A DNA stretch of 22,972 nucleotides from a virus. Each line of letters begins with the position of its first letter. Within the stretch, counting starts at the first letter, position 1. The DNA lies in IMG/VR virus record IMGVR_UViG_3300044858_001210, positions 1-22,972 of that record; one strand, given 5' to 3'. Made by a program: the position numbers and the translations under genes. Shown piece by piece: positions 2,362-11,228 of this stretch. The notes below the pieces were generated by a model. The model did no database searches, was not told the origin of the DNA, and was given only the letters and a program-made list of their open reading frames with translations.

Positions 2362-3945
2362 ATGGAATTTATTGAAGACACGGAAGAACTGTCAAACCAA
2401 ATCAGCATATCTGATCAATCTGATTGGATTAAGTTTAATAATAAACCAGTTGTTGTAAACGATCCATTTAAAATTGAAGGCGAAGATTTAAAGAAAGTAA
2501 ATGGTTTAAGCCCAGCATTTCGTCGTAAAGTATCAAGAGATTTACAAAAAAGATTTGTAGGCCAAGAAGGAACTGCTACACAACAAAATTTAATGGCACA
2601 AGCCGTAACAGGCTATGCCATGTTCGATCTTATCGAGCCACCATATAACCTAGAATATCTTTCCAGGATTTATGAATTCTCTCCGTATAACTATGCAGCA
2701 ATTAATGCTAAAGTTGCAAATATTGTCGGACTAGGATTTTCATTTGTAGAAACACGTAAGGCAAATGAGGCATTAGATAATATTACAGATGAGAGGCAAT
2801 TAGATAGAGCACGTCGTAAATTAAATAAGCTTCGTCAAGATCTAGAATCTTGGCTAGAAGAAACAAATGAGGAAGAAACATTTACAGAAACTTTAATTAA
2901 AGCATACGTAGATCTTGAAGCAACAGGAAATGGCTATATTGAAATTGGCAGAACAACTGCAGGCAATATAGGGTATATCGGACATATCCCTTCAAAGACA
3001 ATGCGTGTACGTCGCTTGCGTGATGGATTTATTCAATTGCTTTATGGCAAGGCAGTATTCTTCCGTAACTTTGGAGATCAAGAAACACCTAATCCAATTT
3101 CAGATGGATCAGATAGGCCAAACGAAATTGTTCATTTAAAGAAATATACTCCAATGAATAACTATTACGGCATTGCAGATATTATTGCGGCTCAGAATGC
3201 AATGGCTGGAAATGAATTTGCTGGTAAATACAATTTAGATTATTTTGAAAACAAGGCGGTACCAAGATATATTATTACAGTTAAGGGTGCAAAGCTTTCA
3301 CCTGAGTCTGAGCGTAAATTATTAGAATTTTTTCAGGTGGGTCTAAGAGGAAAGAACCATAGATCTCTATATGTTCCACTTCCAGCAGATAGCGCAGACT
3401 CTAAAGTTGAATTTAAGATGGAGCCAATTGAGGCAAATTCTCAGGAATCCTCATTTAACGTATATAGAAAAGCAAACAGAGATGAAATTCTTTTGGCCCA
3501 TAGAGTACCTATTAGTAAGATAGGTTTACCTGAAGGAGTTAATTTAGCTTCAGCCAGAGATTCAGATAAAATGTTTAAAGAGCAGGTATGCCGTCCAGCC
3601 CAAGATATTTTAGAAAAGAAATTAAATAAAATTATTGAGGAAAAGACTGACGTATTATTAATTAAGTTTAATGAGCTAACTCTAACCGATGAGGATACTC
3701 AATCTAAGATTGATGAGAGATATTTAAGAATGCAGGTAATTACCCCTAATGAGGTAAGAATTAGAAAAGGCATGGTCCCTATTGATGGTGGAGATACAAT
3801 AGTTCAATTAAAACCACAACAGGCTGCCGAGCAAACTGCACAAGCCATGAATTCTCGTCAACGAACCCAGGAGCGGGATTCAAATTCTCCAGATATTTCT
3901 GGGGAGGCTAGAAATCCAAAAGGCGAGGGCAGAGTAACCGCTTAA
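2362..3945 (+). CDS. Phage portal protein (HK97/PBSX-like family)
   Basis: The portal forms the dodecameric ring at the capsid vertex through which DNA is packaged and the tail attaches. This 527-residue protein is a normal length for the family. Typical stretches are: YNYAAINAKVANIVGLGFSF (about 111-130), a polar helical insertion (about 130-175), GNGYIEIGRTTAGNIGYIGHIPSKTMRV (about 190-217), EIVHLKKYTPMNNYYGIADI (about 255-274), and AHRVPISKIGLPEG with the following helix to the CRPAQDILEKKLNKII region (about 380-425), as in PBSX/HK97-type portals. The C-terminal 40 residues are polar and low-complexity. The start is ATG directly after the preceding stop, with AAGGGG at 2348-2353. The gene is followed by an intrinsic terminator, which separates it from the protease gene. 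Confidence 0.93.
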   Translation: MEFIEDTEELSNQISISDQSDWIKFNNKPVVVNDPFKIEGEDLKKVNGLSPAFRRKVSRDLQKRFVGQEGTATQQNLMAQAVTGYAMFDLIEPPYNLEYLSRIYEFSPYNYAAINAKVANIVGLGFSFVETRKANEALDNITDERQLDRARRKLNKLRQDLESWLEETNEEETFTETLIKAYVDLEATGNGYIEIGRTTAGNIGYIGHIPSKTMRVRRLRDGFIQLLYGKAVFFRNFGDQETPNPISDGSDRPNEIVHLKKYTPMNNYYGIADIIAAQNAMAGNEFAGKYNLDYFENKAVPRYIITVKGAKLSPESERKLLEFFQVGLRGKNHRSLYVPLPADSADSKVEFKMEPIEANSQESSFNVYRKANRDEILLAHRVPISKIGLPEGVNLASARDSDKMFKEQVCRPAQDILEKKLNKIIEEKTDVLLIKFNELTLTDEDTQSKIDERYLRMQVITPNEVRIRKGMVPIDGGDTIVQLKPQQAAEQTAQAMNSRQRTQERDSNSPDISGEARNPKGEGRVTA

Positions 3946-3950
3946 TTATT

Positions 3951-3974
3951 AGGCAACTAGTTATTTGCCTTTTT
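3951..3974 (+). terminator. Intrinsic terminator after portal
   Basis: AGGCAA (3951-3956) pairs with TTGCCT (3965-3970) around an 8-nt loop, followed directly by a T-run (3970-3974). It lies 5 nt after the portal stop codon. A possible TTG start for the protease at 3965 would lie inside the 3' arm, which argues for the later ATG at 4001. Confidence 0.65.
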
Positions 3975-3987
3975 ACATATACAAAGA

Positions 3988-3993
3988 TAAAAT
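3988..3993 (+). promoter_or_regulatory. Candidate -10 box TAAAAT before protease gene
   Basis: TAAAAT ends 7 nt before the ATG at 4001 and follows the terminator above. There is no Shine-Dalgarno before that ATG, so a leaderless start at or next to the A of the ATG is possible. No clear -35 or TGn extension is seen. AT-rich DNA makes chance matches common. Confidence 0.35.
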
Positions 3994-4000
3994 TAAGCAT

Positions 4001-5335
4001 ATGAATATTGAAAAATCCAATTGGTCGTCTAATGGAGACAACATTGTTTTGTCTGTTCCATTCACAAAAGTTAATCGTGAAAAGAGAACAGTATCAGGAT
4101 TTGCAACACTAGATAATTTAGATCAGACTGGCGATGTAGTAACATCAGATGCAAGTCTAAAAGCATTTGAAAACTTTAGAGGCAATCTTCGTGAGATGCA
4201 TCAACCAATGGCGGTTGGCAAAGTTGTTTCATTTAAACCAGAAACATACTATGATCCAAAATCAAAAGAGTTTTTTAACGGAGTATATGTAGATGCATAT
4301 ATCTCAAAAGGTGCACAAGATACTTGGGAAAAAGTTCTAGACGGCACACTTCAAGGATTTTCAATTGGCGGAAAAATTAAAGAGTCCGATAATGAAGTAA
4401 ATAAGGCAACAGGACAGACAGTTAGATTTATTAAAGATTATGATCTTATGGAGTTATCAATTGTAGATTCTCCAGCAAATGAATTGTGCAACATCCTTTC
4501 TATTCAGAAGGTAAATGGACAATTAATATTTAAAGGTATGGCCGCAGAGGTTGTAACAGAAAACATTTTTTATTGCGAGGAAAGCGACTCTGTTTTCATC
4601 TCAACAGAGAAGACTTACGATTCACCAGTAACTGGTAAGCCAGCGGAATTAATTGGTTGGGTTGAAAGCTCAGATGTTAACAAGTCAAAAGAGATAGATA
4701 GAATTCTTGCTTCATTTAAGAAGACAAGATTACCGTTGCCTGCAATACAAACAATTGCAAAACAGGCAAACGCAGAAGGAGGTAATGAAGTGTCAGAAAA
4801 CACAGAAAACGTAGTTGCTGAAGATGTTGTTGCAGAAGCAGCAGCACCAGAAGCAGCCGTAGAAACTCCAGCAGTTGCAGAAGATGCAGCAGTTGAGAAC
4901 GCACCTGTAGAGAATACAGATGCAGACGCTTCTGCCGAAACTCTGGAAAAGGCAGCCGACGTATCAGAAGTTGAGGTTGATGAACCTGATTTTGCAAAGA
5001 TGCTAGGTGACCTAAAAGGCTTTTTCTCAGAAACTTTAAACAAGGCTTCTGAGGCAAACGCAGTGCAGGTTTCAACAATCAAAGAAACAGTAGAAACATT
5101 CAGCAAGAGCGTTGACAGCCGAATTTCAGAATTGGCAGAACAACACACAGCATTAACCAATGCTGTAACAGAAATACGCAACACCATTAATGGTGTAGAA
5201 AAGCGTGTCGATGCAGTAGAAAATGAGACTGCAATTAAGAAGTCCTCAGACCTTGGCGGGTCTCAGGAAGTAACAATTAAAAAATCTAAATGGAACGGTT
5301 CTTTCCTCGGTTCCGTACAGGAAATTTTCAATTAA
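4001..5335 (+). CDS. Prohead maturation protease with C-terminal scaffold region (XkdF/S78-like)
   Basis: Residues are numbered from ATG 4001 (444 aa). An upstream TTG at 3965 would add 12 residues but sits in a terminator hairpin. The N-terminal about 170 residues match phage prohead proteases: GFATLDNLDQTGDVV (about 33-47), LREMH with candidate catalytic His67, GTLQGFSIGG with candidate catalytic Ser121, and YDLMELSIVDSPAN (about 147-160). Residues about 250-320 are Ala/Glu/Val-rich and low-complexity. Residues about 327-415 are helical with coiled-coil character (TIKETVETFSKSVDSRISEL, VTEIRNTINGVEKRVDAV). This tail looks like a scaffolding domain fused to the protease, and there is no separate scaffold gene before the capsid gene. 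The enzyme would cleave scaffold and capsid protein within the prohead. It sits directly before the major capsid gene in what is probably one transcription unit. Confidence 0.88.
   Translation: MNIEKSNWSSNGDNIVLSVPFTKVNREKRTVSGFATLDNLDQTGDVVTSDASLKAFENFRGNLREMHQPMAVGKVVSFKPETYYDPKSKEFFNGVYVDAYISKGAQDTWEKVLDGTLQGFSIGGKIKESDNEVNKATGQTVRFIKDYDLMELSIVDSPANELCNILSIQKVNGQLIFKGMAAEVVTENIFYCEESDSVFISTEKTYDSPVTGKPAELIGWVESSDVNKSKEIDRILASFKKTRLPLPAIQTIAKQANAEGGNEVSENTENVVAEDVVAEAAAPEAAVETPAVAEDAAVENAPVENTDADASAETLEKAADVSEVEVDEPDFAKMLGDLKGFFSETLNKASEANAVQVSTIKETVETFSKSVDSRISELAEQHTALTNAVTEIRNTINGVEKRVDAVENETAIKKSSDLGGSQEVTIKKSKWNGSFLGSVQEIFN
4776..4783 (+). promoter_or_regulatory. Strong internal Shine-Dalgarno (AAGGAGGT) in protease gene
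   Basis: An eight-base perfect match to the anti-Shine-Dalgarno lies 6 nt before an in-frame GTG at 4790. It is much stronger than the start region of the parent gene and lies exactly between the protease part and the scaffold-like part. It therefore supports internal initiation of a separate scaffold protein. Confidence 0.65.
4790..5335 (+). CDS. Nested capsid scaffolding protein (internal in-frame start)
   Basis: Translation from GTG 4790 would give a 181-residue protein identical to the C-terminal part of the protease (VSENTENVV to the end). It contains only the Ala/Glu-rich segment and the predicted coiled coil, with none of the catalytic residues. This is the same layout as phage lambda, where the scaffold Nu3 starts inside the protease gene C in the same frame (established knowledge). 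The support here is the AAGGAGGT element at 4776-4783 with a 6-nt spacing, and the absence of any separate scaffold gene. Whether GTG is used is not shown; no in-frame ATG with a good ribosome site is nearby. Confidence 0.55.
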   Translation: MSENTENVVAEDVVAEAAAPEAAVETPAVAEDAAVENAPVENTDADASAETLEKAADVSEVEVDEPDFAKMLGDLKGFFSETLNKASEANAVQVSTIKETVETFSKSVDSRISELAEQHTALTNAVTEIRNTINGVEKRVDAVENETAIKKSSDLGGSQEVTIKKSKWNGSFLGSVQEIFN

Positions 5336-5356
5336 AAAAAAGGTAGGTAAAAAATA

Positions 5357-6409
5357 ATGAGCAATGAAACATTAGAAAAGTCAGTAGCCGCTAACACTAG
5401 CGTAACCGCTAACATGTCTGGGTCTGCAGTAGCAACCACAGGCGTACACATCGGTTCCGAGGGTGAGGGTGGATTACTTAACCCAGAACAATCAGCTCGT
5501 TTTCTAGACTACATGTTCGATGCAACCGTAATTGGTAAAGTCGCACGTACAGTTAGAATGAGATCTGATACAACTGAAATTGATCGTATGTCCGTAGGCG
5601 AGAAGCTTATGAAACTTGCGACAGAAGCAGATGACACTTCAGCAAACGCTGCAGTATCATTCTCAAAGATTTCTTTGACAACAAAGAAGTTACGCCTAGA
5701 TTGGGAACTATCAACAGAGTCTCTAGAAGACAATATTGAGGGTCCAGATTTAGAAGACCACATCGCACGTATGATGGCAACACAAGCAGGAAATGATATT
5801 GAGGATGTAGTTCTTAACGGAAATACAGCTTTAACATCAGATGCTTTGTACAAGTCATTTGACGGTGTAGTAAAGAAAGCAAAGACATATGGACATGTTG
5901 TTGATGCTGGTGGAGCTGCAGTAAGCCGTGCTGTATTTAACAGCGCCCTTAAGGCTCTTCCACGTAAGTACAAGCAACGTCGTTCAGACCTTCGCTTCTT
6001 GGCAGGTTCAAACCTAATCCAAGATTTCCTATATGCTAACAGCATCGGAACAAACCAAACAATTCCACAAGATATTGCTTCAAGCATTATCCGTGGACAA
6101 GAGGTACAACCTCTAGGTGGTCCAGCAGGATATGTTGCACCATTTGCATTTGGTATTCCAATCGTTGAAGTTCCACTTCTTCCAGAAGCACAGGACGGCG
6201 ATTACTCAGGTGAGACTGGTAACCACGGAGATATCCACTTGACATTCCCAAATAACGTAGTTATTGGAATCAAGCGTGATGTAACTGTTTACCGATTCTT
6301 CTGGCCTCGTAAGGACTCTATTGAGTACACAATGTATACTCGTGTAGGTGTTCAGATCGAGCAAGCAGATGCTTGGGTGGTAGTAAAGAACGTTAAGGTT
6401 GCTTCATAA
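5357..6409 (+). CDS. Major capsid protein (HK97 fold)
   Basis: At 350 residues this has the normal length for an HK97-fold capsid protein. It follows the protease/scaffold gene, the standard position. Features of the fold are an N-terminal arm, a charged extended-loop region (about 65-110, MSVGEKLMKLATEADDTSANAAVSF), a long acidic spine helix (about 130-155, DLEDHIARMMATQAGNDIEDVV) and a C-terminal P/A-domain part (FAFGIPIVEVPLLPE, about 263-277). Its arginines are mostly CGT, whereas the neighbouring fibre and tape measure genes mostly use AGA, which fits a very highly expressed gene. The start ATG has only a weak ribosome site (GGTAGG). An intrinsic terminator follows 21 bp after the stop. 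Confidence 0.92.
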   Translation: MSNETLEKSVAANTSVTANMSGSAVATTGVHIGSEGEGGLLNPEQSARFLDYMFDATVIGKVARTVRMRSDTTEIDRMSVGEKLMKLATEADDTSANAAVSFSKISLTTKKLRLDWELSTESLEDNIEGPDLEDHIARMMATQAGNDIEDVVLNGNTALTSDALYKSFDGVVKKAKTYGHVVDAGGAAVSRAVFNSALKALPRKYKQRRSDLRFLAGSNLIQDFLYANSIGTNQTIPQDIASSIIRGQEVQPLGGPAGYVAPFAFGIPIVEVPLLPEAQDGDYSGETGNHGDIHLTFPNNVVIGIKRDVTVYRFFWPRKDSIEYTMYTRVGVQIEQADAWVVVKNVKVAS

Positions 6410-9651: not shown

Positions 9652-9660
9652 TTTGCCTTA

Positions 9661-9680
9661 TGGCTTAAAATGGCCTAAAA
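9661..9680 (+). repeat. Two tandem 10-bp repeats TGGCYTAAAA
   Basis: TGGCTTAAAA (9661-9670) is followed at once by TGGCCTAAAA (9671-9680), differing at one base, and a partial third copy TTGG follows. The repeat length equals about one helical turn, as in some operator arrays. It lies between the tail terminator and tail tube genes. No clear promoter hexamer pair was found in this 108-bp gap. Confidence 0.45.
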
Positions 9681-9720
9681 TTGGTCTTGAGGAAAGAAAA
9701 GCCTAGCCAGCTTAGATTTT

Positions 9721-9759: not shown

Positions 9760-10467
9760 ATGGCACAATCCGTAGGTAATGCTAAAAACATTCTCGTTGG
9801 TGCATCTCCATTGTTTTTGTCAACTATTGACGTAAACGATTCAGATTATATTGCTAATGCCGAACCAGGCGTGGCAATTGCATCAGCCGCAGGAACAGTT
9901 GGCGTACCAGCATATTCAACAGGAGTATCATACACAACAACATTGAACACTGTTGATCAAGAAGCTGGAAAATTTGGATACCGCAACGTTGGTTTCACCA
10001 ACAACGGTCTTCAAATTACATACAACCCAACATACGACTCAGTAACTGTAGATCAGTTATTAGATACAGCTAAGCTGTTTAAGTCCGCAATGGAAGTTAT
10101 GATTGCAACAGAAATGTCAGAAGGTACTCTCGAGAATATCGTAACAGTATTTGGACAGAATGCATCATCTTTATCAACAACAGGAACTGGAACATCTAAA
10201 AGAGATACTCTAGGTCTTGAAGCAGGTTCTTTAGGTGCCGCTCCAACAGAGCGTCAGTTGATTGCAGTTGGACAAGCTCCAACAGCAAGCTCAACATCAT
10301 CTGAGCGTGTATATTATGCACGTCGAGTATTGTCTGTACAACAGTCACAATTCTCACTTGCCCGTACTACTCCAACCACATTCCCAGTAACCTTCCGTCT
10401 TCTACCAGATGCTAACTACTCTGGCTCAGAATACGGCAAGATTATTGACCGTGTACTAGTAGCATAA
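9760..10467 (+). CDS. Major tail (tube) protein
   Basis: This 235-residue protein forms the tail tube by stacking hexameric rings. The N-terminus (GNAKNILVGASPLFLS), a strand-rich middle (GKFGYRNVGFTNNGLQITYNPTYDSV) and the C-terminal VTFRLLPDANYSGSEYGKIIDR are typical of actinobacterial siphophage tube proteins, with the usual length and gene position. It has a near-perfect ribosome site (AGGAGG, 9744-9749), a tandem TAA TAA stop and mostly CGT arginine codons, in line with very high expression. It is its own unit: a non-coding gap before it and a terminator after it. Confidence 0.9.
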   Translation: MAQSVGNAKNILVGASPLFLSTIDVNDSDYIANAEPGVAIASAAGTVGVPAYSTGVSYTTTLNTVDQEAGKFGYRNVGFTNNGLQITYNPTYDSVTVDQLLDTAKLFKSAMEVMIATEMSEGTLENIVTVFGQNASSLSTTGTGTSKRDTLGLEAGSLGAAPTERQLIAVGQAPTASSTSSERVYYARRVLSVQQSQFSLARTTPTTFPVTFRLLPDANYSGSEYGKIIDRVLVA

Positions 10468-10572: not shown

Positions 10573-10911
10573 TTGGCTACAACCATATATAACGTAGAAG
10601 AGATCGAGCTTCAAAATGGAGCTAAGGTTAAATTAAAACCTTTAACAATCAAAGAGCTAAGAAAGTTCATGGAAGCTATCCAAAAAACTTCTGAGTCTAA
10701 AACAGAAAATGAAACACTAACCATATTAATCGATGCCTGTGCAGTGGCATTAGAAAAACAGTTACCAGATTTGGTAAAAGATCGAGATGCATTAGAAGAT
10801 GCGTTGGACGTACCCACAATCAATCGTATACTTGAAGTATGCGGTGGGATTAAGATGGACGACCCAAACCTTCTAGCGGCAGCGGTTCTGGCTGGTCAGA
10901 ACTCGATTTAG
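10573..10911 (+). CDS. Tail assembly chaperone, short form (lambda gpG-like)
   Basis: This 112-residue protein starts at TTG, supported by AAGGAGG (10559-10565) at 7-nt spacing; there is no upstream alternative. The beta start (TIYNVEEIELQNGAKVKLKPLTIKELRKF) and following helices are typical of tail assembly chaperones, which coat the tape measure during tail building. The stop TAG is read by most ribosomes; a fraction should shift at 10863-10869 into the -1 frame to make the longer form. Position between tube and tape measure genes agrees. Confidence 0.88.
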   Translation: MATTIYNVEEIELQNGAKVKLKPLTIKELRKFMEAIQKTSESKTENETLTILIDACAVALEKQLPDLVKDRDALEDALDVPTINRILEVCGGIKMDDPNLLAAAVLAGQNSI

Positions 10912-11228
10912 CCGCTTTGTTAGGAGAGGTTTTTCTTTTAGGTAATTGGAAAAATTACGAAGAGCTAGAAGATAGCCTTTCAATGCCAGAGTTAATACAA
11001 ACTTTTAAGTCGATGCAAAAAACTGAAGAAGAGAAAAGAAAATTCTTGGCTATGCTTCAGGGCGTTAACTTAGATGAAGAAAAAACAGAAGGTCCAACCT
11101 TCGAAGATATCAAAAGAAAGGCTCTAGGAATCAGTGCTAGTGGAGACGATGTATTATCTTTACAAGGACCGTTTGCCGCAGAGTCTGGATTTGGAATCAA
11201 CGCAGGGCTAGGATACTCTAAGGAGTAA
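10573..11228 (+). CDS. Tail assembly chaperone, frameshifted long form (gpGT-like)
   Basis: Joining 10573-10869 with 10869-11228 gives a 218-residue fusion. After the slip the sequence runs through a Ser/Gly linker (PSSGSGSG) into WSELDLAALLGEVFLLGNWKNYEELEDSLSMPELI, wording well known from the T part of actinobacterial phage chaperones, then a charged EEEKRKF helix and a C-terminal peptide rich in Gly. The T-like part binds tail tube subunits in lambda; the same is inferred here. The short:long ratio would be set by the slippery heptamer. Confidence 0.85.
10863..10869 (+). other. -1 programmed frameshift site CCCAAAC
   Basis: In the reading frame of the short chaperone the codons are CCA AAC preceded by C, which is the canonical X XXY YYZ heptamer. 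A slip of -1 leads into a frame that is open from 10854 to 11228, so the site lies inside the overlap. A possible stimulator downstream is weak (CAGC/GCTG or TTCT/AGAA pairs). The arrangement matches the lambda G/GT system and the conserved frameshift of siphophages. Confidence 0.82.
10869..11228 (+). CDS. T-like C-terminal part of the tail chaperone, made only by frameshift
   Basis: This frame contains no ATG with a ribosome site near its beginning. The only nearby initiation codon is a TTG at 10917, without a Shine-Dalgarno and beyond the conserved WSELDLAA part. It is therefore best read as the second segment of the fusion, not as an independent gene. Its end carries AAGGAG (11220-11225), the likely ribosome site of the tape measure gene. 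Confidence 0.75.
   Translation, partial: PSSGSGSGWSELDLAALLGEVFLLGNWKNYEELEDSLSMPELIQTFKSMQKTEEEKRKFLAMLQGVNLDEEKTEGPTFEDIKRKALGISASGDDVLSLQGPFAAESGFGINAGLGYSKE

Follow-up and report, generated by a model that had tools for sequence, protein, structure and literature searches.

We analyzed a stretch of viral DNA from the IMG/VR database (record IMGVR_UViG_3300044858_001210; 22,972 bases, 36% GC; hereafter, the window) that carries a block of head and tail genes. One of these genes encodes a prohead protease fused to a scaffold-like C-terminal part, and inside it lies a Shine-Dalgarno (SD) sequence followed by an in-frame GTG codon, from which a second, shorter protein could be translated (Table 1). 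As described below, this internal start is conserved among homologous genes, and it appears to supply the scaffold gene that is missing from annotations of these mostly actinobacterial phages.

Table 1. Features of the protease locus and neighboring head genes in the window
Feature	Position	Strand	Remarks
LamG-domain protein	98-1963
Portal	2362-3945
-35 element of protease promoter, TTGCCT	3965-3970	+
-10 element of protease promoter, TAAAAT	3988-3993	+	7 nucleotides before ATG 4001
Prohead (head maturation) protease fused to scaffold-like C-terminal part	4001-5335	+	444 residues; phrog_9427, Pfam Peptidase_S78
Protease domain	4061-4465	+	residues ~21-155; across 91 aligned proteins, His67, Ser121 and Glu151 are invariant
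Internal SD, AAGGAGGT	4776-4783	+	equivalent site in 236 of 236 distinct homologous genes
Internal start codon, GTG	4790-4792	+	codon 264 of the frame from ATG 4001
Nested in-frame gene, predicted scaffold	4790-5335	+	181 residues, 19.2 kDa, isoelectric point 4.2
Major capsid protein	5357-6409	+	350 residues; Phage_capsid match starts at residue 38

The internal start signal

The original prediction described the octamer AAGGAGGT at 4776-4783, a gap of 6 nucleotides (nt) and an in-frame GTG at 4790 that opens a frame of 181 residues, and each of these elements was verified in the sequence. The octamer occurs once in the window, the gap comprises positions 4784-4789, and the nested frame shares the stop of its parent. 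The start had also been placed exactly where the sequence passes from protease to an Ala/Glu-rich and coiled-coil part. It does lie near this junction, but the correspondence is loose, as codon 264 is ~20 residues into the linker (the folded part is modelled to residue 242). The GTG start is also less special than had been supposed: for the Mu-like phage PaMx73, an earlier study placed the scaffold start at a Val codon, and GTG and ATG interchange among the homologues. In the annotated genes of the Streptomyces phages Wakanda and StarPlatinum, the internal GTG is codon 263 and codon 258, respectively.

Taken by itself, the window is compatible with a chance origin of the SD, which is ruled out by the conservation described below. 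The octamer alone is not improbable (0.69 occurrences expected per window), and SD-plus-start patterns number 4 in the window vs 2.4 expected. When the gene is shuffled synonymously with its own codon usage, a site of the same or better quality appears at codon 264 in 0.4% of cases.

Conservation among homologous genes

Homologues were drawn from 80 close IMG/VR relatives of the window gene, 13 annotated Streptomyces and Rhodococcus phages, IMG/VR relatives of those phages, two bacterial genome contigs and two further metagenomic clades found from them. Removal of incomplete and identical genes left 236 distinct complete genes, which cover IMG/VR contigs, the Stanwilliamsviridae of Streptomyces, Rhodococcus phages and the two further metagenomic clades. 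The latter two clades are ~41-47% identical to the window protein, and Rhodococcus-type members 32-33% (alignment A2). The presence of actinobacteriophages among the relatives is in line with the earlier impression that the phage looks actinobacterial. One member of the phage family, CAINGU010000031.1, lies in a genome bin labelled uncultured cyanobacterium, a placement due to binning noise or, alternatively, to a broader range of hosts.

Sites were scored by a fixed rule, namely, an exact SD match of at least 6 bases located 3-12 nt before an in-frame ATG or GTG. The test named beforehand was to look for homologues that lack an internal ribosome site at the junction. None does: an SD with an in-frame ATG or GTG is present there in all 236 distinct genes, just 4 of which were retrievable solely via a search pattern that touches the junction. 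Exact matches reach at least 6 bases in 229 genes and at least 7 bases in 207, and in the 229 genes that pass the rule, the site lies at 0.56-0.64 of gene length. The remaining seven, all from clade C181, were initially scored as lacking an SD. This was overturned, since they carry the pairing-competent AAGGGGGT at the junction, in which the changed base can still form a G:U pair. For comparison, internal sites of at least 7 bases occur in 0 of 181 portal genes and 2 of 217 capsid genes from the same loci.

The bases at the site are conserved beyond codon needs, as had been anticipated. Among 65 non-redundant genes of the window clade, codon 260 is always GGA, codon 261 is always GGT, and codon 264 is GTG (53 genes) or ATG (12 genes) and no other codon. 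In 32 disjoint pairs from this clade, codons 260-264 show 0 synonymous differences, vs 29.4 expected. The inner start has switched between GTG and ATG at least 6-7 times on the tree, and 22 different four-residue contexts precede it. SD and start codon are separated by 6 nt in the window clade and the Loccivirinae, and by 9 nt in the Boydwoodruffvirinae and the Rhodococcus phages. Clade C182 also has AAGGAGG, but in a different codon frame, so that it is translated as Lys-Glu-Asp/Glu, where other clades mostly encode Glu-Gly-Gly. Given the start-codon swaps, the two spacer lengths and this change of frame, we conclude from the comparison that the conserved entity is an RNA signal rather than a peptide.

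The contrary view, that a conserved Glu-Gly-Gly-x-x-Val/Met peptide merely happens to use SD-like codons, can draw on the expected frequency of the octamer and on synonymous shuffles, which retain the octamer in up to 27% of cases for some proteins. We consider it scarcely credible. The SD-encoded peptide varies by clade (EGG, GGA, GGQ, KED, KEE, GVN) while the SD persists, the third bases of GGA-GGT are fixed in 65 of 65 genes, and the control portal and capsid genes are without such sites. For practical purposes, the clade that reads the SD in the other codon frame refutes this explanation.

Another alternative is that the SD-like sequence makes elongating ribosomes pause, or stimulates frameshifting, at a domain boundary and yields no separate product. 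Its position ~20 residues after a folded module would suit such a role, and internal SD-like sequences stimulate frameshifting in some genes. However, a pause needs no ATG or GTG 6-9 nt downstream, and codon 264 is restricted to these two codons despite repeated swaps. A frameshift product was also rejected, as no other forward-strand open reading frame (ORF) of at least 80 codons overlaps the junction in the window, and the out-of-frame ATG at 4785 opens only 9 codons and is missing in relatives with GGTAAAGAAGTG. This alternative therefore seems very unlikely.

The region around the site is also unusually open. In 16 representatives, the 60 bases around the inner start show less structure than 75-100% of gene windows, and in 14 of these they show less than at least 93%. 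The ~20 nt before the SD (4757-4775, codons 253-258) likewise show no synonymous change in disjoint pairs, and perhaps form an unstructured ribosome standby site.

Predicted leaderless expression of the parent gene

The absence of a ribosome site at the parent ATG, part of the original prediction, was confirmed: no SD lies within 20 nt of position 4001, and the promoter ends 7 nt before it. The likely reason is that the gene looks leaderless. All 50 distinct upstream regions of the window clade have the form TTGC[CGT]T-N17-TA[AT]AAT-N7-ATG without an SD. In Streptomyces phages, a -10 element lies 6-8 nt before the ATG in 14 of 16 upstream regions, mostly with a gap of 6, and other clades carry TATTAT, TATAAT or TATACT, mostly at 9-10 nt. 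Only 3 of 136 distinct upstream regions have an SD before the protease ATG. Because shuffled upstream regions yield a -10-like match in 27-46% of cases, the evidence lies in the constancy of position and sequence and not in the match itself.

We regarded an mRNA as leaderless when a -10 element lies ~6-7 nt before the start codon and no SD is present, and this is the arrangement in the window clade, for which a leader of 0-1 nt is predicted. Across clades, the predicted leader is 0-4 nt, with 3-4 nt where the gap is 9-10 nt. A terminator-like hairpin at 3951-3970, upstream of the protease gene, was rejected as a shared part of this arrangement, as it occurs in only 30 of 101 window-clade genes.

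Two other genes in the window, at 2026 and 21888, may also be leaderless or nearly so: neither has an SD, and TAAAAT or TATAAT stands 8-9 nt upstream of the ATG. The promoter-like motif ATTTGCCTT...TAAAAT, with 17-nt spacing, is present in two copies (3951-3993 and 9653-9681), the first of which is 7 nt before the protease ATG and the second ~78 nt before a gene at 9760 that has its own SD, AGGAGG.

A promoter might also exist inside the protease gene, so that the short product would be made from its own mRNA, in the manner of herpesvirus UL26.5, and translated by means of the SD. A promoter-like TTAACA-N16-TAGAAT does occur at 4677-4704, ~72 nt upstream of the SD; a similar TTAACA..TAAGAT is seen in many window-clade relatives, and in clade C182, 9-10 of 12 positions match. 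Although individual clades match, neither position nor quality is conserved across clades (in Streptomyces phages, no more than 6-7 of 12 positions agree), while the ribosome site is present throughout, and promoter-like matches in the window are no more common than in shuffles (43 found vs 44.9 expected). A conserved internal promoter was therefore rejected. We regard a separate internal transcript as improbable, and it would itself still imply a nested scaffold gene.

The parent protein and its predicted scaffold part

The parent protein matches phrog_9427, head maturation protease, over its full length (E 1e-130) in a profile search. Its Pfam Peptidase_S78 match scores 28.9 bits (cutoff 21), and NCBIfam TIGR01543 scores 25.6 bits, below its cutoff of 59. 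His67 and Ser121, invariant along with Glu151, are the presumed catalytic residues. AlphaFold (AF2) models of the protein have a predicted template-modelling score (pTM) of only 0.34-0.37. In the modelled layout, a beta-rich domain extends to residue 155 and a small beta unit (186-222) is followed by a helix to 242; residues 244-327 are unstructured, 331-416 form a helix, and the end is a disordered tail with a short helix. The unit at 186-222 (4556-4666) has a Cys..Cys-x-x-Cys pattern resembling a small zinc ribbon in Streptomyces and Rhodococcus relatives, and the window clade retains only the first Cys.

The nested product consists of linker, helix and tail, without the invariant His67, Ser121 and Glu151. 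Its 181 residues comprise a 67-residue acidic tail rich in Ala, Glu and Val, the modelled 86-residue helix and a conserved S-K-W-x-G-x-F-L in the C-terminal part. Scaffolding proteins are mostly helical with disordered regions (PMC4493119), and the modelled helix at 331-416 and disorder at 244-327 match this description. In the 350-residue capsid protein, the Phage_capsid match already begins at residue 38, which leaves no room for an HK97-type delta domain of ~102 residues. The records of 13 related phages list one 'capsid maturation protease' each and no scaffold gene between the portal and capsid genes; ordinary annotation does miss the predicted nested product, as had been expected in the original prediction. 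Because the product is acidic, helical and partly disordered and adjoins the capsid gene, with no other annotated candidate and no delta-sized extension on the capsid protein, a scaffold is by far its likeliest role, as judged from sequence and models.

Several points weigh against this interpretation. The nested part matches phage scaffold profiles weakly (phrog_73, E 0.0035), and the argument for scaffold function draws on position, predicted structure and the absence of another candidate. A fold search of the Protein Data Bank with both AF2 models found no usable match, so the herpes-assemblin-like fold expected of an S78 protease is unconfirmed by structure search, and a profile search of solved structures gave coiled-coil matches only. 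As to the internal start, codons 253-259, 326-330, 418-422 and 433-437 are also poor in synonymous changes. Moreover, synonymous shuffles retain the site in 9-27% of cases in clades that start with Met (Glu-Gly-Gly-x-x-Met or similar), and these clades therefore add less than their counts suggest. In GTG clades, retention is 0.4-2%. The main weight of the conservation case is in these GTG clades, the frame change and the start-codon swaps.

The three downstream stretches of low synonymous change correspond to 4976-4990, 5252-5266 and 5297-5311. The last ones, just 5' of the capsid gene, may hold signals for that gene.

Proposed mechanism and implications

The features observed in these genes are the signals themselves, where they lie, and a conservation that exceeds what the protein sequence requires. 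We infer the production of both proteins, their ratio, the scaffold function and the cleavage. Very probably, one gene gives two products with a shared C-terminal part: the full-length protease-scaffold fusion and an SD-started scaffold alone. The protein from ATG 4001 would combine a prohead protease of the S78 type with a scaffold domain at its C terminus, and a second ribosome entry at the internal SD would produce the acidic 19-kDa scaffold from the GTG. The shared part would place protease molecules among many scaffold molecules within the prohead, and once the shell is assembled, the protease would remove the scaffold. Initiation of the protease is presumably weak or special because its mRNA (promoter at 3965-3993) is predicted to be leaderless. 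The near-perfect SD in an unusually unstructured stretch would yield scaffold in excess over protease, and read-through mRNA from upstream, which has no protease SD, would yield mainly scaffold.

More tentatively, and with somewhat less than even probability, the phage group may have kept a two-mode translation switch, in which protease is made only from an mRNA that has no leader and starts with the protease ATG, and scaffold is made by the SD from that mRNA and from any read-through mRNA. If so, the protease-to-scaffold ratio would be set by transcription start vs read-through, and would respond to conditions that shift the balance of leaderless and SD-dependent translation, such as initiation factors, stress ribosomes and subunit availability. 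A leaderless parent combined with an SD-driven nested scaffold would offer a clear, testable means of setting stoichiometry.

The inner start would supply the missing scaffold gene for the Stanwilliamsviridae, for Weaselvirus and Dorin-like phages of Rhodococcus and for abundant freshwater phage contigs. Ordinary annotation would thus hide a protein that is probably essential and abundant, and structural or proteomic studies of these phages should expect a product of ~19 kDa.

Surrounding genes

Downstream (3') of the capsid gene are head-tail genes and then tail genes up to the tape measure gene and beyond. Between the tail genes and the tape measure gene, two overlapping frames (10573-11228), one of 112 residues followed by one without an SD, are likely a tail assembly chaperone pair made via frameshifting. 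A minus-strand ORF at 4615-5187 lies antisense to the protease gene; such long frames often occur opposite coding sequence rich in Ala and Glu.

Comparison with known systems

Nested scaffold genes are already known in lambda, Mu and herpesviruses. New in the present case are the group of phages concerned, the use of an S78 protease, how deeply the inner start is conserved and its combination with a parent gene that looks leaderless. We found no report of a nested scaffold for these phages in the literature, papers on related phages included, most subscription papers being outside the reach of our search. The window gene shares the elements of the nested layout, that is, an in-frame, 3'-coterminal frame in a head protease gene that neighbors those for portal and capsid, with a conserved internal start. 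The solution used by lambda, Mu and herpesviruses would thus also occur with the S78 protease family.

The likeness to lambda C/Nu3 that had been proposed holds for layout and not for protease family. In lambda, too, the scaffold gene forms the in-frame 3' part of the gene for the head protease and adjoins the capsid genes (C 4418-5737 and nu3 5132-5737 in the lambda record). However, lambda C is an S49-family peptidase, whereas the window protease domain is Peptidase_S78, and a Pfam scan of the window protease gave no S49 match. Because the protease class differs, the window gene appears to work like lambda C but is not a member of its family. The annotated nu3 ATG at 5132 has no strong SD visible in the sequence shown, whereas the window inner start has one. 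To our knowledge, a leaderless protease promoter has not been described for lambda.

The same nested layout is found in Mu I/Z and in the Mu-like phage PaMx73, for which a Val codon, together with the SD-like ACGAGGA, was put forward as the scaffold start (PMC4378225). These phages differ in having unrelated genomes and another host group; the SD described here is far stronger, and its conservation was tested in 236 genes. Herpesvirus UL26/UL26.5 also pairs a protease-scaffold fusion with a 3'-coterminal scaffold-only product identical to the C terminus of the fusion, and both have a conserved C-terminal tail, which in herpes is required for capsid formation (PMC12474303). UL26.5 counts as its own gene starting in mid-UL26, whereas here the inner start is marked by a conserved ribosome site and not by a conserved internal promoter.

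HK97 gp4/gp5 likewise combine an S78-family prohead protease with an HK97-type capsid protein. In HK97, the capsid protein itself carries the scaffold, as an N-terminal domain of 102 residues (PMC12474303), whereas here it would be fused to the protease, and the capsid protein has no room for it. The reverse combination is seen in the T5-like Vibrio phage pVp-1, whose protease is distantly related: this protease has 201 residues and no such tail, and the capsid precursor has 465 residues.
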